From: Micractinium sp. NFX-FRZ
Lineage: Eukaryota; Chlorophyta; Trebouxiophyceae; Chlorellales; Chlorellaceae
DNA: 64,000 bases
Reading direction: 5' to 3'
Assembly (NCBI GenBank): GCA_029339195.1
Contig: JAPTJF010000231.1
Location: 31,653 to 95,652, forward strand
Shown here in pieces: positions 11,840 through 52,173 of this stretch; position 1 is the stretch's first letter, and each line of letters begins with the position of its first letter. The notes below the pieces were generated by a model, which was not told the origin of the DNA, made no database searches, and worked only from the letters and a program-made list of their open reading frames with translations. A program made the translations under genes and the position numbers.

Positions 11840-14800
11840 TCACGCCACCGACGCCTGCAGCTGGTTCAGCTGCCGGTACACCGCCTGGGAGATGCGGTTG
11901 GGCACGGCGCTGGCAAACGCCACCAGCGTCTGCAGCTGCTCGCGCTTGCCGCTCGCCGCCAGCGCACCGGCCGCCGCCAGCAGCACCGCAGGCAGGCGGT
12001 CGGCAACGGCGGGGTGCAGGGAGGCCACGCCTGCATGTGCGGGGCGAGGTGGCGGGAGGGGAGGGGAGGGGCGCAAGGGAGGTGATTACAGGACGGATTA
12101 TGTTGTCCACTAGAGACAGGCGAGGCAACACGGTGCTTCAGGAAGTTGGCAGTGCAAGCTGCTTCTCTGCCATCGGTACGCAAAAACCAGCTGTCCCTCG
12201 GCCCCGTGAACACCCAGCCACCCACCCACCCGAGGCGCAGAGCTGCAGGCGGAAGCGCTCGGTGGGCACAAACGGCAGCTCCCCCAGCTTCTGCAGCGTG
12301 CGCGTGAAGTCGCCCCTGCAGCAGGCAGACGGGAAGCAAAGCAAAGCACGCACAGTGGGGGAAGGAGCACCAGATTGCCAACAGGCGGCGGCGAGCAAAT
12401 GCGAGGGAAGCAAGCAAGCTTGCAGCATGGCCCATCCGAATTGGGTAACATACAGGCAGCCACCGGGCGCTGTTGTGAAGCGTTGCCAGAGCGCCTCAAC
12501 CGACGCATGCGCCGCCCCCTGCTGACCTGGCGCTGGCTGCCAGCATGTCTCGGATGGACTTGAGCTGGTCAAAGGCCTCCACCTCACGCAGGTCCTCTGC
12601 ACAGCACGCACAGCAGGCACAGCAGCAGCACGGGCAACCCAGCTCAGCTAAAAAGGGATGCCAGGCCAGCAGGCTGCCCAGCAGGCAGGACCGAGAAGTC
12701 TGAGCAAGTGCGCAGCCTGGCAGCCTCAAGGCACGGCACATGTAGAAGGAGCCTGAGCTTGGCGCTGGTGCCCGGTTTTTTTTAAGGGGGGGGTCTACGA
12801 GGGGCCAGCGAGGGGAAGCGTGCGGCGGGGGCAGCAGGCAGGCAGGCAGGCAGGCTGGGAGCAGGTCCCACCTGGGTCCTGCGTGCTGCCCATGGCGGCC
12901 ACGGCAGCGTTGCCCCGGCTGATCACCCCCTCAACCTCGTCGCCTGCACAGGCGGGTGGGGCACCAGGTGGCAGGGGTTGAGGAGGACACACGAGTGTGG
13001 GGGGACACCCAGTGACTTGCCGTCGGCGCACTGATGGGCACCCACTCTCTTGTTCTGGGGTGCCTGTACGACCGCTCAGGTCCATCCAGGCCGGTCAGGG
13101 TGGGTGTGGCACACCAACTCTCAGCAGCTCCCTGGCAACCTGGTGCAGGCTCACAGCAAACAGAGCGGCCCTGCAATGTCCCCAACACCGCCTCCAGCAT
13201 CCAGCACCAGTGCACAGCATAACTGCTGCCATGCTTGCAGGAGGCCGGGAGGCCTGTCCAGGGGCGGCACCTGGCTAACCGCCTCCCCTGATTGCCTGCC
13301 GCCCACGCACCGCGTGCCGCATCGCTGGCTGCCGGCTCCGCCGCGTCCGACAGCCGCTGGTTCAGTATGCGCAGCGCCTGGCGCGGCCGCCCCGCAAACA
13401 TGAAGAGCTCAACAGCCTCCTCCAGCTGGGGGGAGGGAGGGAGCAGGCAGGGAGGGGCATGGCAGCACACATTCATTCATGAAGCCAAAGGAGGGGGAGC
13501 GGGGGCAAGGGCCTTAGTGGGAGGCATGCAGCACTGCACACGTGAACAGCCCAGCAGCCGCCTCCAGCTGTGGGACAGGTGAGGCAGAAGAGAGTGCAAG
13601 ATAGGGTGAGAGGGTGATGCCGTGGGGTGCGCGGCACACAGGAGGCACGCCAGTGGCTGCGGGGCGAGCTGACATGCGGGGCGAGCTGACATGCGGCTGG
13701 CGGACGGGACACAAAGAGCCCCAGGCCTGCGCCGACATTACAGGCTACCTAGTAGGCCACGGCACACTTAGCCCAGACCCCACCTGTGCGCAGGCGGCGC
13801 ACTCGTGCGCAACCGCCTCCAGCACGCGCCCGCGCTCGGCAGCGTCGGGAATGAACCGTGCCAGCGCGCCGCCCTCTCCCGCTGCAGCACAACAACGGGC
13901 GGAAGGGAGCGCGGCCGTGGTGACGCCCCGGCGCAACCCACACAGGTGGGCAACCCCTGCGGCATGCTTTGCTGGGCTGTGCCGAGCCCTCAGCCAGCCA
14001 GCCTGCCAGCCAGCCAGCCAGGCAACAGCCCATTGTAAGCATCACCCACCTGCGCCTCCGCTGCCCAGCAGGTACCCGTAAGCCTTGGACTCGACCAGCA
14101 GCTCACGCAGCAGCTGCCCCTTGACCTGCAGCGCATGAATGGTCAACTCAGAGTGGTGGTGAGACGGGTGGGGCAGAGGCGGCAGGAGGGAGATGCGTGG
14201 CCAGGGTGGAGACAGGTGGGCTGGGTTGAAATGTGCTGGCAGCAGGTCGAGCTTCAGCTGATGCGTCGCCTGCAGTGCCGCGATGCAGACGTCCGTGTGT
14301 CCAAACTTTGAGCACAGGCTCGAGCAGCACACCAGGGTGGTGTGGAGGGCACAGGAGAGGACAGGCAAGCCAGCCCCTCCAAGCCCGCTCTCCTGCACCA
14401 CCGACCCTCGCATGGCCCCCGCAGCCAGCATTGTGGTAGCCCAGTGCCCCTTGCCTCCCTTCCTCGTCCTTTTGCACAACAGCATGCTGCACAACAAGTG
14501 CAGGCCTGTGGAGGCTCACCTGCACCGAGCCCCCCATGGCCGCCGCCGCCAGCATGTAGTACTCCAGTGCCAGCGGGGCGTCGGTGTACAAAAACTCCTT
14601 GGCGTAGCGGTGGATCAGCTGCCCCACCTCCACGCCCCGCCCGCCCGCGCCTGCAGACGGGGACAAAAGGGAGCGGTACTGGAGGTTTGGAAGGGCAGGG
14701 ACAGCACTGAGAGGTGGCAAGAGCAAGCAGCAAATTCATGCGTGCAGTTTTAAAGCAGAAACCCACCACCCGCCTGCCTGCCCACCATTCTCCGCCGTCA

Positions 14801-17800
14801 CGCCCAGTCCTGGCTCATCCCCCCCTGGCTGCCTCCCAAAAATGCCCCCACCACCCACCTGAATCTGCTGCCGAGGTGTCGAGCACCTGGTAGTGCTGCA
14901 GGCAGATGGCCAGGTGTACCGCATCCAGGCGGTACTCCTTGGTGGCAGCCTCACGTGCCAGGAAGGCCACCGCGCCCCTGCAGGCGCATGAGACACAGAC
15001 ACACACCCTTGCTGCACGTGCTGCATGTGCATGGGCCTGGGGAAGAAAGCACGGCCTACAATGGCGCACACAACGAGGTCTAGGGCTATGTGGCTTCGAC
15101 TTCCCATCCATGAACCCCTGTACACGTGTCCCGTGTCCCCCTGCCCGCCCCTCCCACCCCACCGCCCCCCACACCACCCACCCACACACCTGAACTGCAG
15201 GGAGAGCAGCAGCACCACGACGTACAGCAGCGGCTCCTTGCCGTTGTGCGAGTAGTGCGCCGCGGGGTACTGCTGCAGGTAGGTCTGCAGGTCGGACAGG
15301 AAGTAGGCGTCCGACACGCCGCCTGCAGGGATGAAGTAGAAGGAGTTGAAAGGGTGAGGGGTACGCTCCGTCGTTGATATCAGACAAGGGCAGGGCAGGC
15401 CTGCAAGTCGGGCACAATGTAGGCGTCGGAAGCACCGCGTTGAGGGTTTGCTACAGGCCATGCCGCAGTACCCCCCACACCCGCCCACAAGCCCGCAGCG
15501 CACCCGCGCTGCTGCTGCCGGCGGCGCCGGCAAAGCTGACGCCGCGTGCGCCGCCCTCTGTGCGCACGAGGCAGAGCTTGAACCAGAGGAAGTCCTCGAT
15601 GGTGGGGAAGAAGGAGGGGGACTCCTGCGGGGGTGGGCAGGCAAGGGTTGGGTGGAGGGAGGCAAGCAAGGCGTTAGAAAGATGCGCAGGGAGATGGGTG
15701 GGCATGGGAGCAGGTCAGCGGATGCGCAGGCTGCTGGGCACGCTGGCCAGGCAGACGGGGCGCGCAGGTGTAGGATGGCCAGTTCACCCCTGCCTTCCCC
15801 AATCCCCCGCCCTTACAGGGGAGCCCTGCCCTTTACACAATACCCTGCACATCCTCTTTCGCACATCCCCTCCTCGACTTGCAGTGCAGGCCCGGCATGC
15901 CGGCATGCCCACCTTGGCCACCGCCTCCGCCCCTCGGTTGTACCCCGCCACGAGCGCGTGCACCATGGCACGCTGCGCCGAGAAGGCGTGCCGCTGCCGC
16001 GCGCTCTTGTCGCGCAGCAGGCGGTCGCACTCGGCCGACAGGTGCGCGCAGGCGTCGCCGCCCAGGGGGCGGCAGCCGCCCTCAGCCCAGGCCGACAGGT
16101 GGGCAGCCAGGTCAGAGGCGCCAGCGCGGGGGGTCATCACCTCTCGCATGCCCTTGGCTACCTGCGGGCGGGCGAGGAGACAAAGACGGATGTAGGGCAT
16201 GTGGACAGAGAAGAGTGGGGAGCTGCTGGGGATGGATGCATGGATGGTCGGTTGCGTGGCAGGCAGGAGGAAGGGCATGCATGTGAAGGCAGCTGAGGGC
16301 AAGCAGCTGGCAGGCAGGGCAAGCAGGCGGTGCTGAAGGCCCTCGCTTGCCACTGCTCTGCTGCTGCCATCTCACGCTACCAGGGCCGCACCACGACCCG
16401 ACACACCTTCAGTCCACCAACCACTCAAACGCCGCCTCACCTGCACAGCCTCGGCATGGAAGCCTGCCCGCAGGCAGCAGTAGACACGCATCCAGGAGGT
16501 GTCCACGCCGCCAGGCTGCAGGCAGTGGGTCGGTTCCAGAGGTGAAGGACAGCACAGAGGGCGGAGTTGACGTGAAGGAGCACGGGAGCAGGGCCAAAGG
16601 CACGCTGGCAAACTTGCCCCACACCACCACACCGCCTCCAAGCTAAAATGCACACAACATGCACGGCATGCACGTAAGCACAGTGATGAACACCCTACAC
16701 CCACTTCATATCAACACCCACACAACTCACCTGCCGTTACTCCAGCCACGCCACGACTCGTTGGCCCCATCTCTCCCAGCCTCCCTTCCTACCACACCTG
16801 CTAAAAGCTCAAGCCCCGTCCACAAGTTGCTGGCCCCACCACCCATCCCCCACCAGCCGTTCCTCCCACCTGGTCAAAGTCGAGCGCCCCGCGGTCCTTC
16901 TCCTTGACACGCAGAAAGGCGTTGACCAGGCCCAGCCGGCTGGGGCTGCCACCCAGCGCAGCCTGTGGGAACGCGGGGGGAGCGGCGGCAGGGAGGGTGT
17001 GCAAGAAGCAGGCGGCAGGGGGGGTGAGCAGACAGGATTACTGCCAACACAGCCAACAGGCCTGCTTGCACATTCCACAAGCTGCCCTTGCTGCCTTGCC
17101 CACATCTTGAGCCCCAGCAAGCCACAACCCTTGTCCCAGATTAGGCTCTCACCTGCGGAGCGGTACCTGGCCACCGCTTTCTACATTCATGGCGTGAAGC
17201 TCCCCCGTGCTGGTTACACCTCGAGGGACACTGAAACACTCCCAAGCCCTCACCCCTCAAAACTACCCCGTTTTGCCCCCCCCACCTGCGTGCGGTGCGT
17301 GGCCACCACCTTCTGGATGTAGGCCGTGAAGTTGTCCTCCAAGTAGCGGCGCGCCCCCGCCAGCAGCGCCTCGGTGCGCTGCGTGCGCGCCGCCGCCGGC
17401 AGCGCGCCCACGCCGCCCAGCAGGCGCGCCAGCACCTGCCACACGCGCGCCATGGTGGTGCGCCGCTCGCCTGCGGGTTGAAACAGATGCATCGGGGACA
17501 TGGGTTGGGGTGGGAGGTGAGGGAGCGCAGGCAGGCAGGGAGCGGACCAAACAAACCTTGCAAGACTGCAGCCAGAACGACTGTTTGCCAGAGGAGACAA
17601 GGCCACGGAGCAGGCAGCCGCCAACATCCGCTGCCTCCCACACCCACCAACCCCTCACCGTTGCTCTCGTCTGAGCAGGCCGCAGCAAATTCGCCCACCG
17701 CGTCGTAGCCCTGCCCACCCGCCACATCAGCCGCATTCATCTTCCTCACAACCTCCGCATACTTGGCCGCCCGCCCCCGCAGCTGCAGGTTGCCAGCCGC

Positions 17801-20605: not shown

Positions 20606-23600
20606 TGCCATCCTGCTCCTCATCGGCCGCCAGGTAGCGCAGCAGGGCGTCGGCGCAGTCGCCGGCCACGGCGCGCAGCAGGTGGCGCTGCAGCATGGCG
20701 CTGGTGTCGTCATCAGAAGAGAACAGCTCGACGCCGTGTCCATACAGCTGCAGCCTGCAGGCGGCAGTTGGGGCGGTTGCAAGGGCGCCAAGGGTTTCCT
20801 GAGTGACAGAACGCGGTTGTGTTGAGACAGCGGCGCCCCAGCATGAATTAGTCAGAAAGGTGAGTATGCAAGGCACGGTTGGATGCAGCACGGCGCGGCG
20901 TAGGACCAGCACAGCATGGCTCAATGCAGCACAGCACAGCATGGCTCAATGCAGCACAGCACAGCACAGCACAGCACAGCACAGCACAGCAGGGGACCAG
21001 CACCGCGTAGCATCCACAGCTCGTGCTCACCAGCGTAGCGGAACAGCGACGCACAACACGGTACAACAGGGAGCAGCAACCAAGACACCCACCTCTCGTA
21101 TGCCGTGTCCAAAGCCGCAGCCGCTGCCTCACGCAGGCGCCGCCGCCGCTCCGCCCCTGCCGTGAAGATGGCATGCAGCGCACGCTCATACTCGCTGACC
21201 ACAGCTGGGCGCAGCTCTGCAGGCGGGGCAGGGCAGGGTGGGGCGGGTCAGCAGACGGGGGCATGGGTGAGCATGACGGGGGCATGGCGCTGCAGGCAGG
21301 CCATGGTATATGCAGCAGGCTGGCTTTGGATTGAGAGCCAGCAATAGAGCAGAGGATCCTGCACTCTGAGCCGCCGGCGGCGCACCTGTGGCAATGGCGG
21401 AGGGCAGCTCGCCGTCGGCGCCCGCCCCCTCCGTGTCTGGGTGCAGGTCGACCACACGCTGCGCCAGGCTGGCCAGGCTCAGCACCCCGCTGGTGGCAGC
21501 ATTGCCACCGGCACTGCCCGCCTGCCCGCCCGCCGCTGCCTTGCCACCGCCGCCGCCCTTGGCTGCCTTGCCGCCACCGCCGCCGCCGCCGCCGCCCTTG
21601 CCCTTCTTGCCGCCGCGACCTCCTTTCTTCCCCTTCTTCCCTCCCATGTCCCAATCGTCGTCCGACTCAGAGTCTGCCGCTGCCGCCGCTGCTGCCGCTT
21701 TCTTGCTGCTGGCCTCAGCCGCCGCGGCCGCCTTGCCGCCGCCCGCACCGCCCGCCACCCGTGCTTTCTTCGCCTTGTGTGCCTCGTCGGCCGCCTGCCG
21801 GGCCGCCTCCAGAAGTTGCTGCCGGATGCCCTCCAGCATGGCACTTGTCACCACACAGGTGCCCGCCAGGACGTGTGCCGCGCCGCCTGTGGCGGCCACC
21901 GCTCCCGCCACCGCTTTGCAGCTGGCCAGCAGGGCGGCGGTGTCGGAGAGGGAGAGGATTGAGGGGACGTGGGGCAGGATGTCGCACCAGCCGCCGCCCG
22001 ACAGGGCCTCCTCAATGATTGCCTCCACCTGGGGCGGAGGAGAATCATGTGTGTGTGTGTTCATTGTATTGTGCCAAGTTTGATGTGGGAGAACGGTGAG
22101 GAGGGGTGGGGAATGCGGTTGAGGCGGGTATGGGAGTAAGGTAGGCAGACCGAGGTGACATTACTGGACAGTGAGCAAGGTGGAGCGCCTGAGGAGGGCA
22201 GGGCAGGCAGGCGGAGGCTGGCAGGAGCAGGGGCCCAGGCAGCAGGCTGGGGGTGCAGGGTTGTTCAAGGAGAGCGAGCATGCATTGCAACGGTTGGAGG
22301 GTGGCTGTACGCCATGTACAGATCAGGCATGTCCCGCATCTGCCCCAACCCATGTGCCCCAGGCCCGCACCACGCTGTGCCCCACCTGATCCACCACAGC
22401 AGGAGACACGAATGCCGACTCCAGAGCAATGCCGTCTGGGAAGTGCTGCGCCAGGAACTGCTTGGGCTGGGGGATGCCGTACTGCTTGACCTGCAGTACG
22501 GGGGGCAGGGTTGGGCAGGAGATGAGTGGCGGGAAGAAGCTGTGAGGCCAGGAGGATGAGAGCCGGGGAGAGAGCCGGGTGTGAGAAGGGAGGCCGAGGT
22601 TGGAGGGCAAGGTGCGCAGCGCTGAGCTTGTGGTGCAATGTGCCGTGCCATGCTGGACAGCACTGGTCTGGCGACAGAAGCGCTGGACACCATTGAAACA
22701 CACACACCAACACATGCCCCCCAACCCCTTGCCTCGCCCACCGCAACGCATCCATTGTGCACCACTTCTGCTGGGAGCAGCGAAGATGCAATCCTGCCTA
22801 AACAAAAGTAGTGGCAAAACACAACAGGGACAGGCGGCTCACCGTGTCGTATCCGATGTACCCGTTCTGCTGGAAGAAGCGCTTGACGGCGTCCTGCTGG
22901 GAGGCCACGTAGCTGGCGGGCACCCAGCTGCTGGCGCCCGCGGCAAGCTTGCCCGCCACGCTGCCTGCGGGGGTTGGGGGCAGGGGCAGCAGGGGGAGGG
23001 GTGCGCAGGTTGGCAGGCGAGCAGGCAGGGCGCAGGGAAGGGAAGGGAGCGGCCTGGTGGGCAGGACACCAGCTTCGGTAGTGGGCTCGTATAATAATAT
23101 CCTCGCAGGGGACGGGCCCCACCAGCACATCGCAGCAGGCATCACCGGCACACGACAGGTAGCGGCAGCGGCGCAGCGCCTGCAGCACCAAAGCAGCTCT
23201 GCAGACAGCGTTGCTTTGACGCACACGTGTGCTGCTTCCTGCCCCGCTTCCCCTCCCCTCGCCGCACCTTCTGTCACCAGTTCGTCAATCAGGCTGGGCA
23301 CCAGGGCGTTCAGGGAGGCCACACCCTCGATCCCCAGCTCCTTGACCAGGACGGGGATGGACAGGGGGCAGACGGCGGCACGCAGGGCACCCCTGCAGCG
23401 GCACGCGCAAAAAGGTAGGGTCGGCCGGGCCGCGGGACACTTGGGTCGGCGCATGCGGCCGTGGGTGCAGCAGCGCAGCGGAGCGAGTGCAAAGGACAAA
23501 GCCACCCACCAGCCTGCCTGCTCATGGACCAGGCCTCCAGCCCGCCTGCCCGCCACCCACACGCATGTGCTGCCCCAATCGATGTGTTGCTTGCCCGCCA

Positions 23601-37700: not shown

Positions 37701-40700
37701 GTAGGGGGGACAGATTAGGGGCAGGGGTGTAGTGGCCACCTGCACTCATGCTGGTCGTCTGCACGCTGTGTGAAGGGCAGGGCGTGAAGTGGAGGCATGT
37801 TGCATGCAGAGGCCGGGGCTGCTGTTTCGCAAAGTCGGTGCCACTTTGTTCAGTGCTGCACCCTGCTCCTGCCCGCCCATCCTGTCGCCCCGCCCTCGTC
37901 TCCTTACCCCTTCCTGGCAGGTGCTGTCCTGGGCGGTTGCCATTGAGACGCTGCAGAACAAGCAGCGCCAGCTGGCGGAAGAGCAGCGGGCAGAGGACAC
38001 AGAGGAGGCTGCAGCACTAGATGCCCTGCGGCTGCAAGTGCAGGCTGATGAGGGAGGGTCCGGTGCGGCGGCAGAGGCTGCAGATGCCCTTACCACCGGC
38101 AGCGATGCCCGGGCGGCAGGCCCGGAGACACCGGTTGGCACTGGCCTGCTGCGGCGGCGGGGCGCGGGCGGCGACAGCACTGCTGGCACACCGTCTGCAG
38201 GCGGCGGCGACGGGCGCAGCTCACGGCAGCGGCACCGGCGGCAAGCGTCGCTGCTGCCCAGCCCCGCAGCTGTGATGGCCGGCCTGTGGCACTTGGCTGT
38301 TGCCGCCGCCACGCTGCCGTGGCGAGCGGTGCGCTTTGCATCCAGCGCCGCTGCCGGCGCTGTGGTCTGGGGCCTCACCTGGCTGCCCTTTGTGGGAAGC
38401 CTTTTTGAAAAGGAGTTCACTGCTGCCCAGCTGGAGCTGGAGCTCAGAGAGCTGGAAGCTGAACTAGAGGCATTGGAGCGCCAGTCCACAGCAGCGGCAG
38501 AGCAGGAGGAGGGCGGCGACGGCAGCAGCGCGGCCAGCACGCTCAGCGCTGCGGCTGGGCGCAGCGGCGCCGGCAGCAGCGGGCGCAGCGGCGCGCTGCC
38601 CCTGAGCGAAGCGTCGCTGCGTTATGGGCTGGGCATGCTGCAGCGCAGCGGCGGCACGCCCAAGCAGAATGTGGTGCCCGGCAACAAGTACGAGAAGCGG
38701 CTGCTGGCAGAGGTGGGTGAGAGTCTCCTCCTGCCTTGTCTGGTCTGGTGGGGTAGGGTGTGGCCCTACAGGACTGCCTATCCGGCCGCCTGCCGGCCCG
38801 CTCCCCCTTCTCCCCACGCCTCGTCACCCTCTTGGCCCGCCTGTGCAAGCACCCCTCGTGCGGGTGCTGTCCCCCGAGGCCTGCCTACCTGCCTTCCATC
38901 CCGCTCTCCCCACTGCTCCCCACCGCTCCCCACCCTTTTGCCCTCCTGTTGCGCAACCACCCCTCCAGCACGTGTTGGTCCACGAGGACTGACTGCCCAC
39001 CTGCCTACCGGCCCAATATCCTTCTCCACGCCTCACCACCCTCGTGCAGGTTCTTGGTCCCCGAGGACTGACCGACTGCCCGCCTGCCGGCCCACTCTCC
39101 CTCCTCTACGTAGGTATACCTCTCAGCACCCTCTTGCCCTATTGCCGCACAAACCACGCCTCCTTGTTGCAGGTTCTGTCTCCCGAGGACTGCGGGCGCG
39201 GCTTCAGCGAGGTGGGGGCGCTGGAGGATGCCAAGACGGCGCTGAGGGAGGCGGTGCAGCTGCCACTCAAGCACCCAGAGCTGTTTGCAGGTGGGTGGGT
39301 GGATGGTGCATGTGTGTGTCGGCGGGTGGGGGTGGGGGGTGGGTGTCAGACGCAGTGGTAGAGTGCGCTGGGTGTGCGATCGTCTCAAGGTGTGGTGGGA
39401 GCGTTGAGGGGTGGGAGGAGGGGATCTGTGTGAGCAGGAGCAGTGGTTAGGGCGAGCGCGGGGTGCAGCAGGCAGCAGGCAGGAGGAGCACAAGACCGTG
39501 GCAAGCCTGCCTGCCTGTTCCCCGCGCATGCATCAATGCTCTGTGTGCTCCCTTCTTGACTGCTGGTGCAGGCAGCACGCTGGCGCGGCCCTCCAAGGGA
39601 GTCCTGCTCTTCGGCCCCCCAGGTTGGCTGGCTGGTTGTGCAACTATCTGCCTGTTCATGTGTCAGCACTGGGTCTTGCTCAGGACAGCGCCCCGGCCTT
39701 CCAGCTTCCCGATCTGTGCCCCTTTCTGCGCCTCCCTTGGCCTTCCTGCGCCTTCCTGCGCCTTTCCGTCTCCATCCCGCCCCCCTTCCTGTGCGTTCCT
39801 GCTTGCGTCTTCCCTCACTGTTTGTACTCCCCTCCCCAACCTGCCCTCCGCCAGGCACCGGCAAGACTCTGGTTGCGCGAGCGGCGGCAGCCGAGTGCGG
39901 CGCCGCCTTCCTCTCCATCAGCACGTCGGATGTGACCAGCAAGTGGTTTGGGGACTCCACAAAGCTGCTCAGGTGGGGCACGCGGAGGAAGGGGCGCGAG
40001 GGTTTTGTGAGGCAGCCAACATGAGACGGAGAGAGCACAGAGAGGGAGGTGGAGATGTCGGCGGGGTTGGCTGCGCTGGCAAGTTAGCCAGCAAGCAGGG
40101 AAGCTAGCCAGCAAGCAGGGAAGCTAGCCAGCAAGCAGGGGAGTCGGTGCATGGCCAAAGGTGCGACTGACCAGAGGTGCTGTGTCGTGTTTCAATAATA
40201 GGCTGGGCACACGCCGTGCACTTCCGCTGCTGCAGGGCTGCCTTCACCCTGGCTGCCAAGCTGTCGCCCTGCGTCATTGTGAGCGCAGCCTGCATGCCCT
40301 GGTTTGCTGTGTGCAGCACTGCAGCCAGTGTCGTGCCCCTCGTATCAGTCAGCCTGGAATGCATCGCCTGCACCTGCCAAATCAGCGCGGGGTGTGGTCG
40401 CCTGCCTTGCATGCTTAGCCCAGCTGTGCGCATGTATTCCCCCACCAACCACATGCCCTGTGCCCTCAGAGCTGACCGTGCTGTACTGCCCCCTGGCCCT
40501 CTGCCACCCCCTGCTCCTCTTGGGCCCGCCCCCGCCCTACCCCACAGTTTGTGAGTCACGCCGCCCAGCAGCTGCCCACATGCATCGCAGTGCTTACCGC
40601 TGTTGCGCCACCCTGCCTTGCCGGCTTGCCCTGCACGGGACGCTGCACCGCCTGCCCGGGCCCACTGCCAGCTCAAGCAGGCGGGGGCTCATTAGCCATT

Positions 40701-43076
40701 GCTAGCCCCTGCCTGGTGCATGCCTCCCGCCCTCTCCCCATCGCTGCGACCGGCCGACCTTGCCTCAATCATGCCCACCCCTCCCGGCAGATTGATGAGG
40801 TGGACGCTCTGCTGGGCAAGCGCAACTCCTCGAAGGAACACGAGGCGCTGCGGTGAGCCGTGGGCAGGCGCATGTCGGTTCAACCAAGTTGGTGCTGTGA
40901 AAGAGCGGGGCAGGGCAGGCAGGGCGGCCTGAGCGGCGGGGTGCCAGCTGAACGGCTGTCCGCCACGCATTGCCTCGTTGCTGGTCCGGGATCCCCTTAG
41001 CGTGCACTTACCGTCCCAGGAGTTGGGGCGGCAAGTGCTCCTACCTGCTAAGGTGTGCTGCGCAGCACGGCGCTGTGCTGCGCTGCTCCCTCCGCGCATT
41101 TCTTCTGATGCTATGCTGTGCTGTGCTGTGCTGCGCTGCGCTGCGCTGTGCCTGCAGTGAGATGAAGAACGAGATGATGGCCCAGGTGAGCGGCAGCGCA
41201 GCAGCCGGGGAAGGTGCCGGCGTCAGCCGGCTGTAGTTGCCTGCTCATGTCCTTGCAGCGGTTGTGGAGTAACTGGCAGGGTCAGTTGGGCGGGCAGGCA
41301 CATCTGCTGGCCCACCCACCCACAGCCTGTGCACCCGACGCCCTCCGCCACCCTGACGCCCCTCTGCAGTGGGACGGCATCCGGCCGGGGCGGGAGCGGG
41401 TGATGGTGCTGGGGGCCACCAACCGGCCGTTTGATCTGGACGAAGCAGTGCTGCGCCGCTTCACACACAGGTAGGCGGGTGCTGGCCGCATCGTCGCCCA
41501 CTGGCGGGCGTGCTGTGCAGGGCAGCGCGGGGCAGGGAGGGATGCACATGGACATGGAAACATGCACCGCCCAGCGGCCTCCCTTCCTCCCTGCCGCCCC
41601 GCCTGCATTCTGCCCCCACCCAGCTGCCCACCCAGCTGCCCCCGCCCACCTTTCTTCCCCCCTGCAGGATCTTTGTGGGCCTGCCGGACCGGGCTGCGCG
41701 TGCCGCCATCCTGCGCGTTGTTCTCGAGGGGGAGAAGCTGGGCGCTGACGTGGCGATTGACAGGCTGGCGGAGCTGACCGAGGGCTACTCCGGATCCGAC
41801 TTGAAGCAGCTGTGCGTGCAGGCAGCCATGCGGCCGGTGAGGAGCTACTTGGAGAGCAGCAGCGCCGCTGACAAGGCGCCGGCATTGCAGGAAGAGGAGG
41901 AGGCGGCAAATCCCTGCGCAGCCCCCTCAAGTTGTGCGAGCCTGTTTGTCGGCGGGCCTGAACGCCTCCAGCCGGCGGGAGAGGCGGCGGGCAGGGCCGG
42001 CAGCGGCACTGAGGGGGGCCCCGCACCGTGCAAGGCGCACGGCGGCGGCGACGCCACGGCGGCGAGCAGCATGGAGCTGCCGGAAGCAGGAGGAAGCCAA
42101 GATGAGGACGGCGCGGCGGGCGTAGCAGGCATGGCGGTTGCAGCGCCCCCGCCGCACGAGACGGAGCCCTCCCTGCCCCTGGTGCCCCGCCTCGACTCGC
42201 TGCTGCGTCAGGCGGAGCACATTGCGGCGGCGCCTCGCAACCCCAAGACCGACCTGCGCCCCGTCAGCATGCAGGCGCGCACCGGGGTTGATGTCTATTT
42301 GGTTGGCCAGGCCGGGTGTATCACTTGAAGGGTGGGTGGGGAGCAGAGCGGTAAGGGGGTCTTTGCCGCTTGCCTCAGGTTAGCCGTCGCCTGCGGCTCC
42401 CAGCCTGGAGGCATGAGGCATTTCAACGCACGTCCTCCTCCCTCGTGCCGTGCCCCTAATCCACCCAACAAAAGACATGCCAATCTCACGCCTCACCCGA
42501 CCGCCCTCCCTGCAAAATCTCCAGGGAACACGCCGACAGAGGCGGTGCCTCTCCCACTCCTTGCCGCTTACTCAAAGGAGCAAGCACGCAAGGAAGAAGC
42601 AACTTGCACCACTTTGTTTGTCCTACCTCCCCTCCCCTGCCTGCCCCTCCCCGCAGGACTTTGAGGAGGCGCTGAAGGAGGTGGGGGCCTCAGTCAACCC
42701 GGAGTCGTCGGTGATACACGAGGTGGGAGGTGGGGGTGCACTGGCGGTAGCAAGAGGTGTTGAGAGACGCGGAGAGTTTTGCGGGGCCGGGTTTTGGGCA
42801 ACCCGTACTTGCTGGGGGCTCCTGAGGCGAGGGTGCGAGTTATTTGGATGAGAGTTGCGTGGGGTAGATGGCGCGTGCAAGCGGAGCGGGGAGGTGCTCT
42901 TCTTGTCTGCTGATAGCCCGGCCAGCTGCCTGATGCCAGCTGTCTCATCCCTCTGGCTGCCCGGCCCACCCTCACCCCCTGCCACTGCTGTGCAGCTCAA
43001 TGAGTGGAACTCCCAGTTTGGCACGACCGGCAACAAGGGCGGCGTGCGCTCCAAGCGCCTCTCCTACTACACATGA
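34738..43076 (+). CDS. Large plant-type AAA+ ATPase (Msp1/spastin-related class)
   Basis: Eighteen exons give 1142 residues: 34738..34884, 35141..35296, 35489..35663, 36051..36239, 36522..36821, 37022..37178, 37463..37700, 37921..38712, 39173..39290, 39572..39622, 39855..39972, 40236..40278, 40791..40852, 41158..41185, 41370..41470, 41668..42274, 42657..42722, 42996..43076. The long N-terminal part carries a hydrophobic segment and a coiled coil ([18 protein letters not shown]). The single AAA domain near the C-terminus has [20 protein letters not shown], Walker [10 protein letters not shown], Walker B IDEVDALL, sensor 1 [10 protein letters not shown] and an Arg finger region LRRFTHR. The ending LSYY resembles plant AAA proteins of this class. 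These act on mitochondrial, peroxisomal or ER membranes. Walker B lacks one hydrophobic residue as spliced (CVI|IDEVD). The intron at 42275 has a GC donor. Confidence 0.9.
38863..39192 (+). repeat. Tandem decayed copies of a 3' splice site plus exon start
   Basis: In the intron 38713..39172 of the AAA gene, the exon start GTTCTGTCTCCCGAGGACTG (39173-39192) has three upstream imperfect copies at about 38863-38884, 38972-38991 and 39050-39070. Each follows a C/T-rich stretch. Two of the copies run straight into a TGA. The flanking C/T-rich stretches also resemble one another, so the repeated unit includes the intron 3' end. Confidence 0.85.
40084..40141. repeat. 20-bp tandem repeat, nearly three copies, in an AAA-gene intron
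   Basis: The unit GCTAGCCAGCAAGCAGGGAA is repeated almost perfectly about three times in the intron 39973..40235. Confidence 0.85.
41110..41152 (+). repeat. GCTGT/GCTGC pentanucleotide array just before a 3' splice site
   Basis: The array lies directly upstream of the acceptor CCTGCAG at 41157 in the AAA gene. It reads GCTGT in the transcript, as do the arrays in NUP93, UFL1 and the PhzF-like gene. Confidence 0.85.
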
Positions 43077-43320: not shown

Positions 43321-44038
43321 TCAGGAAGACGCGGCTGCAGGGGCGGGCGCCGTGGCCGCCGCTGCTGCCGCTGCGCCTGCTGCCGCCGCCTTAACTGCCG
43401 CTGCTGCCTCTGCCGCCGCACGCTGCACGCACTCGGGCGCGGGTGCGGTGCGGGGCAGGTGGTTCCTGTCGTACAGCAGGCTGTTGCTCAGGTACTCCTC
43501 CTCCTCGTCATTCTTCCGATCGGCATACTCTGTAGGGCGAGGAGGAGGGTGCAGAGGGTGTTGGGACGGGAGGGAGGGCCAGCACTTTGCAAGCACCGAG
43601 TCAGAGGCTGCTGCGCAGATAATGCTCGGCCTCGTGGCTACTGCGATCGGCATACCTTGGACAGGAGGGTGAAGCGCAGAAGGCTGCCGGCGGGAAATTT
43701 ATTGGGTAGGATTGAGCTACATACAAAAGCTGTCCCCAGCAGCAGCACGGGACCCACTGACCCAAGGTCAGGACCTGGTGCTTCCAAAAAGTGTCAGGCT
43801 CACCTGTCCACCAGCGCTGCAGCGAGTTCTCATAAGCCGCCTTCTTGTCCTTCTGCTTGCCATAAATGGCCTCCAGCACATGCGGCGGGCACCCGCTGCT
43901 GCGTCCCTTGCTGCTGCTGCTGCTGCTGCCGCCGTTGGCTGCCGCTGGCGGCGGCGGTGCAGTGGCGGCGGCGTCCCGCGCCTGCTCGCTGGCCAGCTGC
44001 TGCTGCTGTTGCTGCTGTTGCTGCGCTATGTCTGCCAT
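43321..44038 (-). CDS. Small protein of unknown function
   Basis: Exons complement(43321..43529, 43804..44038) give 147 residues. The N-terminus has polyQ (MADI then Q9) and a Ser/Ala/Pro linker. The core is CPPHVLEAIYGKQKDKK, ENSLQRWWTEYADRKNDEEE and YLSNSLLYDRNHLPR. The C-terminus is an Ala-rich tail. The core looks like a conserved folded segment, but I do not recognise the family. No signal peptide or membrane helix. The single intron holds a decayed copy of the second exon's start (see findings). Confidence 0.75.
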
Positions 44039-44388: not shown

Positions 44389-47300
44389 ATGCAAGGCAAT
44401 CTCTATGCGCTGCTACCGGCTCTGCTGCTCCTGGCGGCGGGGGCGCCGCGGCCCTGCTGCTGCCTGGCTGTTGCCGCCGCCACCGTCGACACATTCCTGG
44501 ACAGCAGCCTCCAACTGATGGGTGTGTATGTCGACCCTAACGACACCCAAACATCCAATGGCCTGGACCCAGCAGTGAACCCCATCGTTGCTGACCTGCC
44601 AATGGACGAACCGCCGCTGGTGAGGCCGTGACTGCGGGGACCCGGGCAGACGGTGCAGCAGGGTTTTTTTTTTTTTTTTTTGCATACGGCCACCATTGCG
44701 TGTATGTGGCTTAAGTTGTTGGGGCAGGCGACGCCTCGCACACGCAGCCTGGGTAGCATGCATGTGGTATACCGGGTTGCCATCGACCATCAGACAGTCC
44801 TGGACACCTCGCTCCCGCCCCTGCAGGCGCGCACTGCGGTGGGGTGGGAGCCCGAGGGCATCCACCTCACCATGTGGAGCTCCGACACAATCCTAGTCAG
44901 CTGGCAGACTGGCAGTGAGTGGTGGGACGGCAGGTGCCAGTACGTGGGCAGCACGATTTGGTGAAGGTGGTGCGGCACTTGGCAGCCCAGCCGCCAGCCC
45001 TTTGAACCACTCTCGCCTCATCCCATGCTGCAGAGCCACGCACGGGGCCCACCGCCGCCCCTCCGGCGCCCCACACCGCATCGGAGGTGGTCGGCCGGGT
45101 GCGGTTTGGCACCTCGCCGGGGCAGTACAGCGAGACGGCATCTGGTGGCGCCGATGTCGTGTACAGCTATGGCTATGATGAGGCAGCGGGGGGCATGACT
45201 TACCAGGTGGGGCCTGGCGCCCGGCTGGGATCTCTGCTGTAACCGTGGCACTACAGTCTTTGCACATTCATCTCACATTTCACATTCATACTACAGTGTG
45301 TATGTTGTGTCTCTGCATGCTGGTGTGTTGCTTGCTGGTGCTGGCAATGGCTAATGGGTGGGCATGCTGGTTTCTGCTGAGGGAGGCGGCACCTGCCACA
45401 CCCTCACATGGAGGGGGGGACCATGTGCTGCCACCCCTGCTGCTGCTGCTGCCGCTGCAGAGCCCCATCCTGCACCACGTGCTGCTCAAGGGGCTGGAAC
45501 CGGGGCAGACCTACTACTATCGCGTCGGTGAGAGGTGCAGCAAAGGAAGACGGCAGGCAGCAACCCAGCATGGCATGCCTGGCGGCCCAGGGGTCAAGCA
45601 CGGGTCATGGGAGTGAGCATGGGAGTGAGCACGGGACTGAGCATGGACACCTCCCATGCCGCCCTGGCTCACCCACCCGCAGGGGGAAGCCACCCAAACG
45701 GCACCGCCACACCCGACAGCGCCGAGTTCAGCTTCAGGATGCCGGGGGGGCCGCCCAGCCAGCTGCGGATCGGCGTGATTGGTGACCCAGGTGGGGCGGG
45801 GGTGGGGGTGGACGAGTGGGTGGGCGCCTGCTATGTGACGTCCCAGGAGGTATCGTGAAGTGGGTGGGCGTCTGCTATGTGACGTCCCAGGAGGTGGCGT
45901 GAGGTGGACAGCGGGTGGGTGGGTGAGTGCCAGCCATGCTGTGCACGCTGTCTTGACCATCACCACGTTGCAGCAGCGAGAGGGCGGCGCCCCTCACCCA
46001 GCCTGCACTGCGCCCCTGCTGTGTGCCCTGTGCAGGCCAGACGTACAACACATCCCGTGTGCTGCAGCAGCTGGCGGCCAGCAAGCCCGACGTGGTCGTC
46101 ATGCTGGGCGACCTGAGCTGTGGGTGCAGTTTCACCTCTTGTGTGCCGCTGTGGGTGTTCTGCGATCACACTGGTTGATGCCGCCGCCCTGTGGTGTTCT
46201 TGCCGGGACAGTTGAGCTGTGAGCTTGCCTGCTGTCAACTGCCTTGACTGCTGTGTGTTCGAAGGTAGCTGGGGACAAAGGATCAGACTGCAGCCGTATG
46301 TGCAAGAAGCACTTGCGACATCAACTGCGCATCATTGATCGTCTTGCAATGCCGCCTTGCCTTATAGATGCCGATCTCTACTTCTCGAACCAGACGGACG
46401 GCAACTGGAGCTTTGCCAGCCCACCGTCCACCCAGCAGCTGTGAGTGCCGCAGCCCGCCACAGCAGCCTGCACCGCCTGCGCTCCACTTACCTCATGCAG
46501 CACTGCTGCGCTTTGCATGCATGCAGGGGCCGTGCCCTGCCTTTCGACTGCCCCTTCAGCAGACAGGCACCTTCCTCACTGGCTGGCACAAAGCAGCCCT
46601 CCGTCCCCGCTCTGGCTCTGGCGTACCCCCTGCCTGACGGCCCCCCGCCCCACGCATGCGTGCAGGCGGTGGGACGCGTTTGCCCGCCTCACAGAGCCGC
46701 TGCTGGCCCGGGTGCCCGGCATCTACATTGGAGGCAACCACGAGACGGAGGTCCAGGCGCTGGCGGGCGGCGCCACCTTCACCGCCTTCAACGCCCGCTA
46801 CCCCGCCCCGCAGGTGATTAATTATAAAGTTCCTAATGGTGCCCCCCCCCTCCCCCGCTCCCAGCTTGATGTCCATACTGGAGGAGAGGACCAGCCACCC
46901 CCGCCCCTCTTCACCCTACACCCTACTGTACTACTGTGGCCCGCCCCCGGCCACCGCACCGGCGCCACCCCTCCCTCCCTCCATGCTTGCCTCCCCCCCC
47001 GCAGGACCCGGGGAGCATCGACACAGCCCCCAACAACGCCTCCCACTACCTCAACGCCACAAACAGGATGCAGTTTGCCAACGAGTCGGAGTGTGAGTGA
47101 GGGCAAGGGGTAGGCCAGCAGGGTTGGCAGAGGGAGCTGCGGGGCCTGTGGGGAGGCGTGCGTGGTGGCTTATGGCGGCGCGCCTGCACGACTCCGGGGC
47201 ACCAACTGCGCAGCGGCTTGCTGGGCTTGGTGCATTCTGGCGTATGCTTGCTCGGTGTGCCTGCCCATGCGCTCGCCCAGCGCTCCCGTGCCGCTGCACC

Positions 47301-49711
47301 ACTCCCTGCCCTGCGCCTCTGCATTTACATTCCGCCGTCCCCCCGCCCGCCGCCCCCTCCCCCTAGCAGTCCCAGGAGTTCTGCTATCTCTGTGCACTCT
47401 AAACATAACTGTTTGGGTTCCCCCCCTGCAGATGACGTGCACAGCGGCTTCTTCTCTATGGAGCTGCCCCACACCAAGGTCATCGTGCTCACCAGCTATG
47501 TGAGCGGCCCGCCTGCTTAGCCACGGCAGTGCAGCTGCAATGAAGCTGCACCCTGCTGATGAGCTCCCGTTGATCCATGCGCTGCTGGGTGTAATCAATG
47601 GCGCGGTGGGCGTGCCTGTGTGCACACTCCGGCATCCCACCTCCTGGCCATGCGGCCTGCTGCTTTGCCCGCTGCCCGCCCACTCATCCCCACGTCGCTC
47701 CCCTCCCGCCCGCCCGCAGCTGCCGTACAGCCCCGCCTCTCGGCAGTACCGCTGGGCAGCCGCAGAGCTGTCCGCCGTCAACCGCACCGCCACGCCTTGG
47801 CTCGTCGTGCTCATGCACAGCGCGCCCCGCATGTCTTACGGCACAGACTGGGGGATGTTCAAGGTGGGCAGGCAGCAGGCACGGGCAGCCAGGTCGAGGG
47901 AAGCCTGCGCCATGCTCACGTGGCAGGCAGCAGGCACGGGCAGCCAGCTCAAGGGAAGCGTGCGCCACGCTCATGTGCAGCAGCGGGACGCTTTATGTGG
48001 GAGAGCAAGAGCCACCCCTCTGGCTGCCCCGCTCCCCGGCCACCCACACTGCCGACCCCCTCCCATCCCCTTCACGCCCCTCCTTTCTTCACAGTCCCCG
48101 CCCCAAACCCGTCGGCCACATTCCCTGCCACACATGCCCTTCACACTCAGCGCTTTCCTCCTCCTGTCCCCGTCTCAGCAATGTTCTCTCCTGCCCCGCT
48201 CACCACCCACCCAGGAGCTGGAGGAGTGGATGGGCTTCTATGAACCACTCTTCTACCAGGCCCAAGTCGACCTGGTGCGCACTGTGTGCCAGTCCCAGCC
48301 ATTCCAAACTCCAGCTTGCGATTGCCAGCGCAACCGCGTGCCGTGCCCAGCCCGCTTGCTGCCTACCTGCGGTCCTGCTAGCCCTGCACGCGGACGCCGC
48401 TGTCGCCATCCCTGCTGCTGCCGACGGTTGGGTCCCATTGTGTCAATGCCAGCCACGCCTGCCTCCCACACTGCTTCCCCGTGCTAGCAGATGCTGAGCG
48501 GGCATGTGCATGCATACGAGCGCACCCTGCCCAATTACAACTACTCAGTGGACCCGTGCGCCACGGCTTACATCGTGATTGGTGCGTGGCAGAGGTGGCG
48601 GTGATGTGGGCGTGCTGTGTGGGGGCGCAATGTGGACATTGTGCATGCACGGCTGGCCCGCCCTCACCTATGCCTGCCGGGCCTAATCTGCTCCTGCGCC
48701 GTCTGCTTACGCAAGCACCCTATGTCAGAGGGGCCTTTAACTTCGAATGCAAGTAATCATGACACGATTCGCTCCAGCTGCGCCTGTCTATCTGTTACCT
48801 GGGCACCGCCGACCTGCCCACCGACCCACCTCAACGGCCCGGCCCACCTTGGTTGCAGGGGACGGCGGCAATGCGGAGGGGCCAGAGTCCCACTTCGTTG
48901 ACAGCGCAACGCCGCCCGTCTACTGCTCCAACCAGTCGCTCTACTCCCAGCCCAGCTACCAGCCCACCACGACAGGGCAGGTGAGCGGGGTGGGGCGCGT
49001 GAGAGTGCCGACCGTGCTGTGTGGCACAGGCGTGCGCAGGGCATCAGCGGCGGTGATGCGGGAGTGCTGGGTGGGGCCACAGGGACATGTGTGCATGCAG
49101 AGAGGTGCTGCTGCTGGTGGCCCCCACATGTTGATGATTCCATCATGCTCGTGCCCCCCTCCCCCGCCCCTGCCCCCCGCCTCCTCCCCTCCCCCCCTCA
49201 TGCAGCCCACGCTCACCTACCAAGACGGCATCTTCTGCCCCACCTCCCAGCCCGAGTGGTCTGCCTTCCGGGAGCCGTCGTTTGGTCATGGTGGGTCGGG
49301 TCACATGCCTGCCCACCCTGCAACTTGCCACTGCACCCGCCAGCCTCGGTTGTCCACTTCCTTGAGCAGGGCGGCGGCTCGCTGCCAATGCAGGTCGACA
49401 TGGCGCACACTGCCTGCCGCCCTACCTTCTCCTCACCGCCTCCGCCGCCTGGATCTGCCTCCCTGACTGCAGCCCTGCTGACCATTGTCAACGGCACGTC
49501 GGCCGAGTGGGCGTGGCACCGGAGCCAAAACGACACAGTTGTGATTGCAGATGGGGTGGCGATGCATCGATCTTTGGGTTGTGGGTCAACGGCGGGCCCG
49601 CCGCCGCCGGCCGGCAGCGGCACAAGCAGCGGCGGCACGAAGGCAGCAGCGGGCGCGCTGACGATGGCGGCAGCGGTGTTGACGGCGGCAGCCGCTGGCT
49701 GCTTTCAGTGA
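44389..49711 (+). CDS. Purple acid phosphatase (metallophosphoesterase), secreted, possibly GPI-anchored
   Basis: About 16 exons. Exon 1 is 44389..44619, with a signal peptide (MQGNLYALLPALLLLAAG). A fibronectin-like N-terminal domain (LILVSWQTG-type strand, LEPGQTYYYRVG) precedes the catalytic domain. All five metal-binding motifs appear in order: GVIGDPGQTYN, VVVMLGDLSYADLY (Y and A joined across an intron), GGNHETE, VVLMHSAPRMSYG and LSGHVHAYER. The last exon ends with a small-residue/hydrophobic tail (GALTMAAAVLTAAAAGCFQ) after a Gly/Ser/Pro linker, as in GPI-anchored proteins. The enzyme hydrolyses phosphate monoesters at acid pH, usually for phosphate scavenging outside the cell. Intron 1 has a T18 run at 44664-44681. 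Introns also hold a 44-bp and a 55-bp tandem duplication. Confidence 0.93.
45815..45902. repeat. 44-bp tandem duplication in a phosphatase-gene intron
   Basis: Two copies (45815-45858 and 45859-45902) differ at only a few positions. Each contains CTATGTGACGTCCCAGGAGG. Confidence 0.9.
47867..47976. repeat. 55-bp tandem duplication in a phosphatase-gene intron
   Basis: Two imperfect copies starting at 47867 and 47922, each beginning GGCAGGCAGCAGGCACGGGC. They lie just after the donor that ends the GTDWGMFK exon. Confidence 0.85.
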
Positions 49712-50228
49712 TGTCTCAACAACGTTTTACTAACTTATTTATGACATGCTTAACTTATTACATTGCAAATGAATTCTGGATGTGGACAAGTCTACTTCTA
49801 CTTCAGGCACCTGGTGGCTGCTGTCCCTGCTGCGCCGTCGGCCAGGTGCCAGGCACCCACACGTGCGATGCTCCAGAAGCAGTGGCTTGGCGGCCTTCCT
49901 CTTGCAAGGCGGGTGCCATTGGTGCCACTCAGCTGCATCTTCACTCTTTTGCTGGCCGCCCCGCGGAGCGACTTCCCGCACCGGCGGTAGGAGGACCGTC
50001 GACGGCCCTCGCTCGCGTGCTCCTCAAATCTGCTAGAAGCGCTGGAGCCAGCCGCAGGTGGCCCTCCAGCAGAGGTGGTGGGTGGGTGGCGGCGGCAGGC
50101 AGTGGCGGCAGGAGGGCTCGGCAGGCAGGCAGCAGGTGGCCAAGCAACCAAGCTCCTTGTCTCTCCCCCTCCTCCCACAGGTGCCTGTGATGGGTCTGGC
50201 GCCAGCCGGCAAGTGAAGTAGCCAGCCA
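49712..50228. other. 3' UTR and intergenic region
   Basis: The first 70 bp are unusually A/T-rich for this window (TTTACTAACTTATTTATG, then TTACTTACATT-like sequence) and are probably the phosphatase 3' UTR. The remainder should be the J-domain gene promoter. No gene or RNA was recognised. Confidence 0.5.
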
Positions 50229-52173
50229 TGGTCGACTTCTACAAGGTGCAGTGATGTGGGTGCTGAGCGCCTGTTGGGCGTCGTGCGTCCGCGTGAAGCA
50301 CTGTTGGCCCTGCTGGGAACAGTGTTGTAGGGCGGCCCACAGCCTGCGCTTCCCCGTGCCGTGCACTGCACACTGGCGCACATGTGGACCACAGCAGTTG
50401 GGTGGGCAGCGCTGGGCACACACCAGCCTGGTGGTCAGCGCCAGACACGCTCCTGCAGTTACAGCAGAGCCCTGCTTCGCTCTGCCGAGCACTGCTGCCC
50501 CCATTGCGTCTTGCCCTGCTGCACCCTCATTGCTTACTGCCGCCCCTGTTCCTCCTTGCTTCTCACTCGCCCCCAGGTACTGGGCGTATCAGAGGATGCA
50601 ACGCCTGCTGAGATCAAAGCAGCCTACCGGCGGCAGGCGTTTGCACTGCACCCCGACACGTGCGTGTCAGCAACAGCTGTTGTTGCAGCCGGACAGCGTG
50701 CTTGCAGGGATGCAGCCTGGCTAGCCGTGCTGAGGCCACAGCTACGGGCCTGGCTCCCTTGCCGCCTCGTTCTCAACCCTTGTTTTGAAGTCCACCCGCC
50801 TGCCGCCGCTCCTGCCCTCATGCCATGCACGCCTCGACCTCACCTCGCCCCTCTCCCCCCGCCACCCCTCGCCCGCCCTGCAGCAACCCAGAGGGTGCCG
50901 GGAGCGCAGCGCAGGCTCGCTTTGCCGAGCTGCAGGAGGCCTATACGGTGCTGCGAGACGAGGGGAAGCGGGCGCAGTATGACCGCATGCGAGCTGCTGG
51001 CTTTGGAGGCCCCGAGTTTGGAGATGCCCCGGACAGCACAGGCGGGTACAGCACTCCCTGGGGGCAGCCGTCGATGGATAGCCGGGACTTCGATGCGGCG
51101 TTTGACGCATGGTGGAAGAAGATGAGCGAAGAGTGAGTGGATCCTTGATTGAGCGGTGGGAGGGCGGCTGGGTGTGGGAGTGGGGTGATGGCAGGGTGGC
51201 AGTGAGGAAGATGAGGGAGGTGGGTGGGCAGGGATTTGGAGGGTGACTGGCCTTGGAGGGTTGTGGGGGTGGCCGTGCTGGGGTGAGGTGGGAAGGGAAG
51301 GCAATCGAGCGACCTGCATTCCTTCAGGCTGCCTCTCCTGCTCTCCTCGGAGCCAATTTAAACCTGTATCGCACCCCTCAGGTCTTACTTGGACAAGCAG
51401 CAGCGTGCCTGGGGGGGCATGTACAGGGATCATATGCCCGACCCCCGGCCTGCCTGCCTGCCAATCTTGCCCTCCCCACTCCTGCCCGCACAGCCTCTGC
51501 TCAGTGTTGAGGAGCTACCATGCCGAGCACCCCTGCAACCTCAGTTGTGTTGCGGAGCCCTGATGCCACAAGGTCGCCTCCTCCCCTGCTTGCCTGCGCA
51601 GGTTTGACAGCTATGAGGAGCGGCAGTACATGAAGGAGCGGTCGAATGCGGAGCGTATGGCGCGTGCCGCGGCCTGGGAGTGGGAGAAGCAGGAGGCGCA
51701 GGCCAACAAGGTGCGGCAGGGGCAGGAGTGAGGGGAGGGGGCGGAATGCACCCGGTGTGTTGGGAGGTATCAACACAGCAGCAGGAGGCGCGGGCCAACC
51801 GAGTTGGGAGTGAGCAAGCCTCGCCCTGCCTCGCCCGCAGGTGCGCGCCCAGAAGCTCAAGTGGCGCACTGAGGACGCGCGGCTGCAGCGGCACGCCACC
51901 ACGCTGCGCCGCTTCTGGCAGACCCACTCCGGGCTCACACTGGGGGATGCCCTCGTGGCGGGGCTCTGCCTGGTGGGCACAGCAGGCATAGCGCTGGCCT
52001 GGCGCACCCACATCCGAGAAGCGCAGGAAGCACAGCAGGCGAAGCAGCAACAGCAGCAGCAGCAGCAGGCGCAGGAGGGGCCTGCAGGCGTGCCGGCGGC
52101 AGCAGCGTCTGCGGCAGCAGCAGCAGCAGCAGCAGCAGTAGCAGCGGCAACGGCAGCAGCAGTGCCCCCCTGA
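50229..52173 (+). CDS. J-domain (DnaJ-like) membrane protein
   Basis: Exon 1 is only 18 nt (50229..50246, MVDFYK). It joins VLGVSEDATPAEIKAAYRRQ, ALHPDTNPEG and ARFAELQEAYTVLRDEGKRA, a complete J domain with its HPD motif. Later exons give MDSRDFDAAFDAWWKK, DSYEERQYMKERS and a charged coiled segment. Near the C-terminus is one membrane helix (LTLGDALVAGLCLVGTAGIA), followed by a Gln/Ala-rich tail ending AAAVPP. J proteins recruit and stimulate Hsp70. This one probably does so at a membrane, with the type unresolved. The intron joining GGM to FDSYEE uses donor AT|GTACAG, chosen by phase. The last intron holds a decayed copy of the preceding exon end. Confidence 0.88.

Follow-up and report, generated by a model that had tools for sequence, protein, structure and literature searches.

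Introns in the sampled DNA of the green alga Micractinium sp. NFX-FRZ hold worn copies of the edges of the exons that flank them. The stretch examined, hereafter the window, is a 64-kb segment (C231:31653-95652) of a 66.07-Mb genome of 838 contigs; a further 30 kb of that contig and 150 kb drawn from 14 others bring the DNA analyzed to 244 kb. The copies exceed chance expectation, lie in direct orientation, have a characteristic size and spacing, decay as neutral DNA, and go with greater intron length. We attribute them to a recurrent process that duplicates splice junctions over a short range into introns, with neutral decay afterward, an account to which we give about an even chance of being correct. 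The results suggest that introns in the sampled part of the genome grow partly through repeated local copying of splice junctions.

Excess of exon-edge copies in introns

Gene models were built with a purpose-written hidden Markov model gene finder, trained on the 244 kb without outside annotation, which converged on 66 genes and 449 introns (mean length, about 240 bp) with a sharp splice consensus, AG/GTGAG at donors and CTGCAG/G at acceptors. The predicted NUP93 protein shares 85% identity with its counterpart in Micractinium sp. CCAP 211/92, 82% with that of M. conductrix, and 78% with that of Chlorella vulgaris, which identifies the alga as a chlorellacean near Micractinium. Each 60-bp exon edge was aligned with its own intron, with the introns of other genes as the null and a cutoff of p ≤ 0.005. 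Left out were genes with a coding sequence below 450 bp and introns truncated where a sequence ends, which kept 443 of the 449 training introns, as well as exon edges shorter than 25 bp and trimmed introns shorter than 30 bp, so that 840 of 886 edges were tested.

Own-intron matches numbered 29 among the 419 upstream-exon edges and again 29 among the 421 on the downstream side, with 2.1 expected in each set, and in all 58 of 840 edges matched where chance predicts 4.2; the reverse complements of the same edges gave six matches (four upstream and two downstream). Spread over 54 of 443 introns, roughly one intron in eight, the matches touch 29 of the 52 genes tested, which bears out the proposal of a first-pass annotation of the window that a recurrent process places exon-edge copies in the adjoining introns of many genes. 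That annotation had also suggested shuffled introns as a check, and the excess held there: when dinucleotide shuffles of the own intron served as the null, 25 of 404 upstream and 28 of 408 downstream edges (53/812) matched, with 2.0 expected each. Inside the window, 10 of 215 edges matched compared with 4 of 215 reverse complements, and some few of these window matches may be due to chance. In the 180 kb outside it, 48 of 625 edges and two reverse complements matched, so that the pattern is replicated in DNA beyond the view of the first-pass annotation. Exon-edge copies in introns are confirmed as real and as present beyond the window.

When the other introns of the same gene served as the null, 44 of 326 and 44 of 328 edges matched, but exon interiors exceeded this null as well (8/114 and 6/111), and it was therefore not relied on. 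Exon segments lying 70 to 130 bp from the junction gave 0 matches in one set of 170 and 3 in the other, with 0.8 expected in each. This control shows that the effect is limited to exon edges, although it is blind to the difference between a preference for junctions and a short reach. Tandem Repeats Finder reported 35 arrays with a period of at least 30 in the 244 kb (18 exonic, 14 intronic, and 3 intergenic), none of them of the exon-edge kind.

Size, orientation, and position of the copies

Local repeats were searched at offsets of 20 to 500, and the filter for low complexity and redundancy kept 386 of 1,707 direct and 100 of 346 inverted pairs. With a score of at least 18, the catalogue holds 141 direct and 8 inverted repeats, which agrees with the direct orientation and short range expected of a tandem duplication across the junction. 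Among pairs scoring at least 17 that have an intronic copy, 45 span the junction and 17 are exon-only, with median offsets of 113 and 124, block sizes of 43 and 35 bp, and spacers of 69 and 78 bp, respectively. Of 66 pairs scoring at least 16, 60 could be assigned to one intron; in 45 of these, the source crosses the junction or ends at most 6 bp from it. These 45 extend 9 to 49 bp into the exon and −6 to 33 bp into the intron, much alike on the donor and acceptor sides. Ungapped similarity around the junction reaches background level by about −50 and +35, whereas a head-to-tail duplication should leave homology over its entire unit of about 110 bp. Offset is correlated neither with exon length (rho = 0.23, p = 0.17) nor with intron length (rho = −0.01), and two catalogue copies (score of at least 18) are present at 4 of 37 junctions. 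The extension test used 49 of the 58 hits, the nine lying more than 6 bp off the junction being excluded, and only the best pair per junction entered the ungapped-similarity, 28-junction spacer-homology, and pooled-profile tests.

Intron length, decay, and age of the copies

The copies accompany longer introns, as the first-pass annotation had it: they occur in 2 of the 62 introns under 150 bp versus 13 of the 33 over 400 bp, and median length is 305 bp for copy-bearing introns versus 215 bp for the others. Since longer introns offer more room, only part of this difference need be growth.

The view of the copies as decaying neutral fossils likewise proved sound. Exon-side mismatches fall on the three codon positions at nearly equal rates (129/748, 153/747, and 161/746 for positions 1, 2, and 3), and offsets are blind to the reading frame (division by 3 leaves 0 in 25 cases, 1 in 27, and 2 in 24), which together indicate that the copies evolve as neutral DNA. 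They had further been described as having mutated splice sites or an immediate stop; the former applies to the 18 of 41 copies that have lost the splice dinucleotide, and an in-frame stop is found in 4 of 76 aligned exon parts. Copies retain GT or AG in 23 of 41 cases compared with 27.8 expected under neutrality, donors in 11 of 21 (14.1 expected) and acceptors in 12 of 20 (13.7 expected), a loss at roughly the neutral rate that weakens the first-pass picture on this point. Selection against decoy sites was considered and rejected, as this difference is not significant. Weight-matrix scores of the copies are nominally under the neutral expectation, at −0.3 versus 2.0 for donors and 1.1 versus 2.3 for acceptors.

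Three genes with proteins from relatives offered informative residue sites. At two of three sites the copy has the exon residue particular to this species, and at the remaining one, in NUP93 (M against I), it is ancestral; 9 of 84 amino acid differences match a relative. These few sites point to copies of probably mixed, often recent age. L013 (2715-3192) holds three successive copies of a 3′ junction, the last of which lies 66 bp from the exon and matches it without a mismatch for 32 bp; it has no stop in the frames inspected by eye and may be a candidate in-frame alternative acceptor.

Individual copies in window genes

Window gene names come from the first-pass annotation and from inspection of the proteins; homologs served to check only the NUP93 gene, the L011 calcium-dependent-kinase gene, and the LysM/chitin-deacetylase-like gene at C1 14021-19556. 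Seven window genes had been singled out as carriers of copies, and all except the PAP gene (p = 0.12) were supported, namely, NUP93, UFL1, the RRM gene, the AAA ATPase gene, the '43-kb' gene, and the J-domain gene.

On the minus strand, NUP93 has four matching introns (all p ≤ 0.005). Its exon edge at 13386-13425 is identical at 31 of 40 positions to a copy at 13528-13567 within intron 13426-13783, and the edge at 14523-14571 at 41 of 49 to a copy at 14399-14448 within intron 14126-14519. The third edge (15278-15322) matches a copy at 15394-15438 in intron 15323-15503 at 34 of 45 positions, the acceptor AG having become AC, and the fourth (about 17286-17331) matches one at 17153-17199 in intron 16963-17285 at 35 of 46. 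UFL1, also on the minus strand, has one such intron (22491-22842), with a copy at 22747-22782 of an edge at about 22848-22881 (27/34; p ≤ 0.005). The minus-strand '43-kb' gene is significant (p = 0.001) and stands outside the counts since its coding sequence is under the 450-bp limit; its edge at 43478-43528 is copied at 43605-43655 in intron 43530-43803 (38/51). The methionine-aminopeptidase-like gene on the same strand has a 17-bp copy at 54793-54809 in intron 54767-54899 (16/17; p ≤ 0.005), which is weak because it is short and whose source lies 12 to 29 bp off the junction.

On the plus strand, two introns match in the RRM gene and one each in the AAA ATPase and J-domain genes (all p ≤ 0.005). 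The RRM-gene copy at 29531-29572 in intron 29383-29635 derives from 29636-29677 (30/42), with homology extending about 20 bp past the junction into the intron, and that at 29814-29852 in intron 29760-30166 derives from 29720-29759 (30/39). In the AAA gene, the edge at 36187-36239 is copied at 36357-36406 in intron 36240-36521 (38/49, gapped), and in the J-domain gene, that at 51685-51707 is copied at 51777-51799 in intron 51711-51840 (21/23). A second AAA-gene intron (38713-39172, plus strand) is a worn ladder of its own 3′ junction with a period of about 106 bp and a p value of 0.016 in the whole-edge test. The best copies of the exon start at 39173-39193 lie at 38864-38884 and 39050-39070 (p = 0.003 and 0.017 against shuffles), and the next two are individually nonsignificant (p = 0.199 and 0.468).

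Other repeats were seen in window introns. The PAP-like gene has contiguous tandem duplications of about 90% identity at 45815-45907 (period, 44 bp) and 47867-47984 (period, 55 bp), and an AAA-gene intron carries at 41109-41158 a simple GTGCTGCGCT-type repeat with short matches at many genome sites.

Mechanism and alternative explanations

Under short-range junction duplication, about 45 to 50 bp around a splice junction would be copied in direct orientation into the adjoining intron, the block typically comprising 20 to 45 bp of exon edge and 0 to 30 bp of intron edge and landing mostly 80 to 150 bp from its source. The real junction would still be spliced and the copy would stay hidden within the intron, so that the protein would remain unchanged and the copy would decay neutrally. 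Repeated events would produce ladders and lengthen introns from both ends, while the conserved exon would serve as the reference that keeps the fossils recognizable. From the gene models and the proteins of relatives, we infer that splicing bypasses the copies and uses the real junction: the NUP93 proteins of three relatives have no insertion at the four copy-bearing junctions, and a fourth, partial protein fully covers two of them.

The spacers between copy and source bear on the nature of the event. Among 31 junction-spanning pairs, the spacer resembles the predicted flank in 6 (p ≤ 0.01), and in a second test spacers were homologous at 7 of 28 testable junctions, compared with 10.5 to 14.2 expected if intron divergence is twice that of the copy and 23.1 if it is 1.3 times; simple tandem duplication, the general mechanism favored by the first-pass annotation, is not supported by this count. 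When 37 junctions are pooled, a 20-bp stretch has 15.6 best-shift matches at the exon edge, 12.4 immediately past the junction, and 9.6 (null, 9.3) from 20 bp into the intron onward. Contiguous repeats make up 11 of 42 intron-internal pairs versus 1 of 62 exon-edge pairs. The homology over the whole unit that marks a head-to-tail duplication is found in a minority only, below expectation, and includes what look like true ladders with homologous spacers in the AAA intron 38713-39172 and in L008 (8893-9299, three consecutive 3′ junctions). We read the majority of copies as interrupted and a minority as whole-unit duplications, and old homology may have escaped detection. The event was probably not a plain head-to-tail duplication but a template switch during repair or replication, or else a duplication that took in filler DNA. 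Filler duplication at a staggered break would explain in part both the abutting of copies on junctions and the spacer, and at acceptor copies the filler would need to provide a branch point and a pyrimidine tract.

Doubtful as a general account, then, is the head-to-tail tandem duplication of a junction-spanning unit of about 110 bp whose spacer was erased by fast turnover or gene conversion. A unit that crosses the junction necessarily contains it, which would explain why copies abut junctions, and the two ladders, the seven homologous spacers, and a faint residual signal elsewhere speak for such units. However, even junctions with an exon divergence of at most 0.18 give 5 of 16 homologous spacers, compared with 10.2 to 13.3 expected; contiguous intron-internal duplications are alignable at 72 to 92% identity, yet a single exon-edge pair is contiguous; and tandem units would hold more intron than exon in 40 of 41 cases. 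Plain tandem duplication accounts for the abutting and fails for the spacer. Copying could also be a short hop without any preference, in which any block of about 45 bp is copied about 110 bp away and exon-derived copies stay recognizable longer through exon conservation. Interrupted intron-internal pairs with similar offsets (median, 91) exist, and the raw share of deep-exon sources, 15 of 60, is what this model predicts (0.25 to 0.34). We nevertheless consider it rather unlikely, as it predicts 1.0 to 1.5 intron-internal pairs per exon-edge pair, whereas 31 interrupted intron-internal and 61 exon-edge pairs were counted. Moreover, 12 of these 31 sit in introns carrying exon-edge copies, the six inverted intron-internal pairs are at chance level, and local direct repeats occur in 7 of 1,020 intergenic windows versus 50 of 1,788 intron and 21 of 725 junction windows (out of 4,669 windows in all that passed the complexity filter). 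A preference for junctions is favored by the scarcity of intron-internal pairs and not by the deep-source count; on this moderate evidence, junctions are likely preferred as sources rather than merely preserved.

Function under selection, with the copies acting as decoys or splicing enhancers, would fit the maximum of similarity at the splice junction, but the near-even codon-position mismatches, the frame-independent offsets, the dinucleotide kept less often than expected without selection, and the species-specific residues, by which several copies are young, make it very improbable. Chance, low-complexity sequence, or gene prediction errors in which the copies are skipped true exons have more than one point in their favor: CAG/GCC repeats abound in the genome, edges also match in the window as reverse complements, exon interiors too exceed the same-gene null, and individual rows, e.g., C1 2768-2923, consist of repeat arrays. 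Yet the excess persists against other-gene introns, own-intron shuffles, and reverse complements, the preponderance of direct over inverted repeats survives the complexity filter, and the NUP93 proteins of relatives lack insertions at the junctions covered. These controls rule out chance and artifact for the bulk of the copies, single weak rows possibly being of this kind, and as a general explanation we regard them as extremely unlikely.

Several points weigh against short-range junction duplication. Part of the association with intron length reflects length-biased sampling, the other introns having a length-biased mean of 276 bp, compared with 312 bp in fossil introns. Spacers retain a faint signal at 40 to 60 bp inside the predicted unit (maximum z, 2.5), and the clearly homologous ones imply that some share of the copies are whole-unit duplications. 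The 15 exon-touching pairs that stop more than 6 bp short of the junction fall within the preference-free range, several of them being low-scoring or in introns that also hold abutting copies. Finally, the sample is 0.37% of the genome, and the gene models are self-made, with a homolog check for three genes.

A stronger version of the junction preference is that splice junctions are the preferred donor in a process linked to splicing or to splice motifs, by which introns grow from their ends, a mutational habit not previously described. An exon edge of about 45 to 50 bp would be repeatedly pasted about 110 bp into the intron, e.g., by template switching primed at GTGAG or CTGCAG or by repair templated on pre-mRNA. 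On the mixed evidence for a junction preference, we hold this version to be unlikely.

Own-genome DNA searches yielded, among the best-scoring candidates, no paralogs or haplotypes showing the ancestral state. Intergenic DNA held 17 pairs scoring at least 17, of which 10 come from two adjacent arrays of about 52-bp and 43-bp repeats at L015 4448-5138. Dispersed matches to L011 4331-4560 were set aside as CAG-rich sequence with no Rfam hit.

Significance and comparison with known systems

The source of the sequence added to growing introns is usually unreadable. It is readable here because the exon retains a nearly original template beside each copy. The copies thereby form a record of local duplication from which block sizes, locations, and relative ages can be read. 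The genome is compact and dense in introns, with about 440 of them in the 244 kb, and its fossils also amount to a natural experiment on the tolerance of splicing for newly duplicated splice sites.

Similar intron sequence shared among many unrelated genes, as with introners or other mobile intron elements, was not evident: acceptor-side spacers gave 0 pairs with a score of at least 14 (null, 0), and donor-side spacers gave 6 versus 1. DNA searches of the own genome returned, among the best candidates and besides the query, short matches only, those inspected being simple repeats, and no second long copy of a fossil intron was found among the scored candidates. Gao and Lynch (2009) reportedly described internal gene duplications that include exon and intron sequence and create introns; these are said to add exons or introns, unlike worn edge copies. 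In L018 (5377-5653), an exon edge, part of the intron, and the next exon are repeated at an offset of 246 (61/71 identical), which looks like an internal gene duplication that multiplies an exon edge with its donor.

Drosophila has novel introns from duplicated coding pieces (PMC2891723). In the Rogers model, introns are gained through duplicated AGGT-containing exon pieces (PMC3443670, PMC4974935), which resembles the algal pattern in the local direct duplication of exon sequence by splice sites; there, however, the repeats lie one intron length apart and the intron consists of the copy, whereas the algal offset is about 110 bp in introns of about 300 bp. Gain of this type was rejected as a general source, since 374 introns showed no general excess of its geometry: exon end and intron end agreed at 22 or more of 37 positions in one intron (0.06 expected) and at 20 or more in two (0.26 expected), and intron start and exon start agreed at 18 or more of 33 in none (0.84 expected). 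A candidate for classic gain by tandem duplication is the 156-bp intron at L005 2768-2923 (G000 C1:22768-22923), which is filled by a 47-bp repeat and whose flanking junctions are 30/32 identical at an offset equal to its length.

In Daphnia, introns gained at staggered double-strand breaks are flanked by short direct repeats (PMC3443670). Direct repeats with unrelated sequence inserted between them are common to both cases, but the Daphnia repeats are short and surround a new intron, whereas the algal blocks are of about 45 bp at existing junctions. Lipomyces stwintrons arise by donor duplication (PMC7138796); here, too, a splice donor is duplicated beside an existing intron, which is ascribed to repair of an asymmetric break, but the duplications measure 4 to 7 nucleotides and nested introns result. 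The potato RdRp gene offers a single case of tandem duplication across an intron-exon boundary (PMC4974935), similar to the algal pattern in that the local duplication takes in the intron 3′ end and the start of the next exon. It concerns one gene and a new intron, in contrast to many genes and the lengthening of an existing intron, and in the alga the spacer is usually nonhomologous and the copies decay. The main text of PMC9860276 makes no mention of Chlorella or Micractinium. Dense exon-edge copies as a genome-wide habit are undescribed among the literature matches listed, which covered few subscription papers. Single events of this kind are ordinary; it is their density and shape that are unusual.

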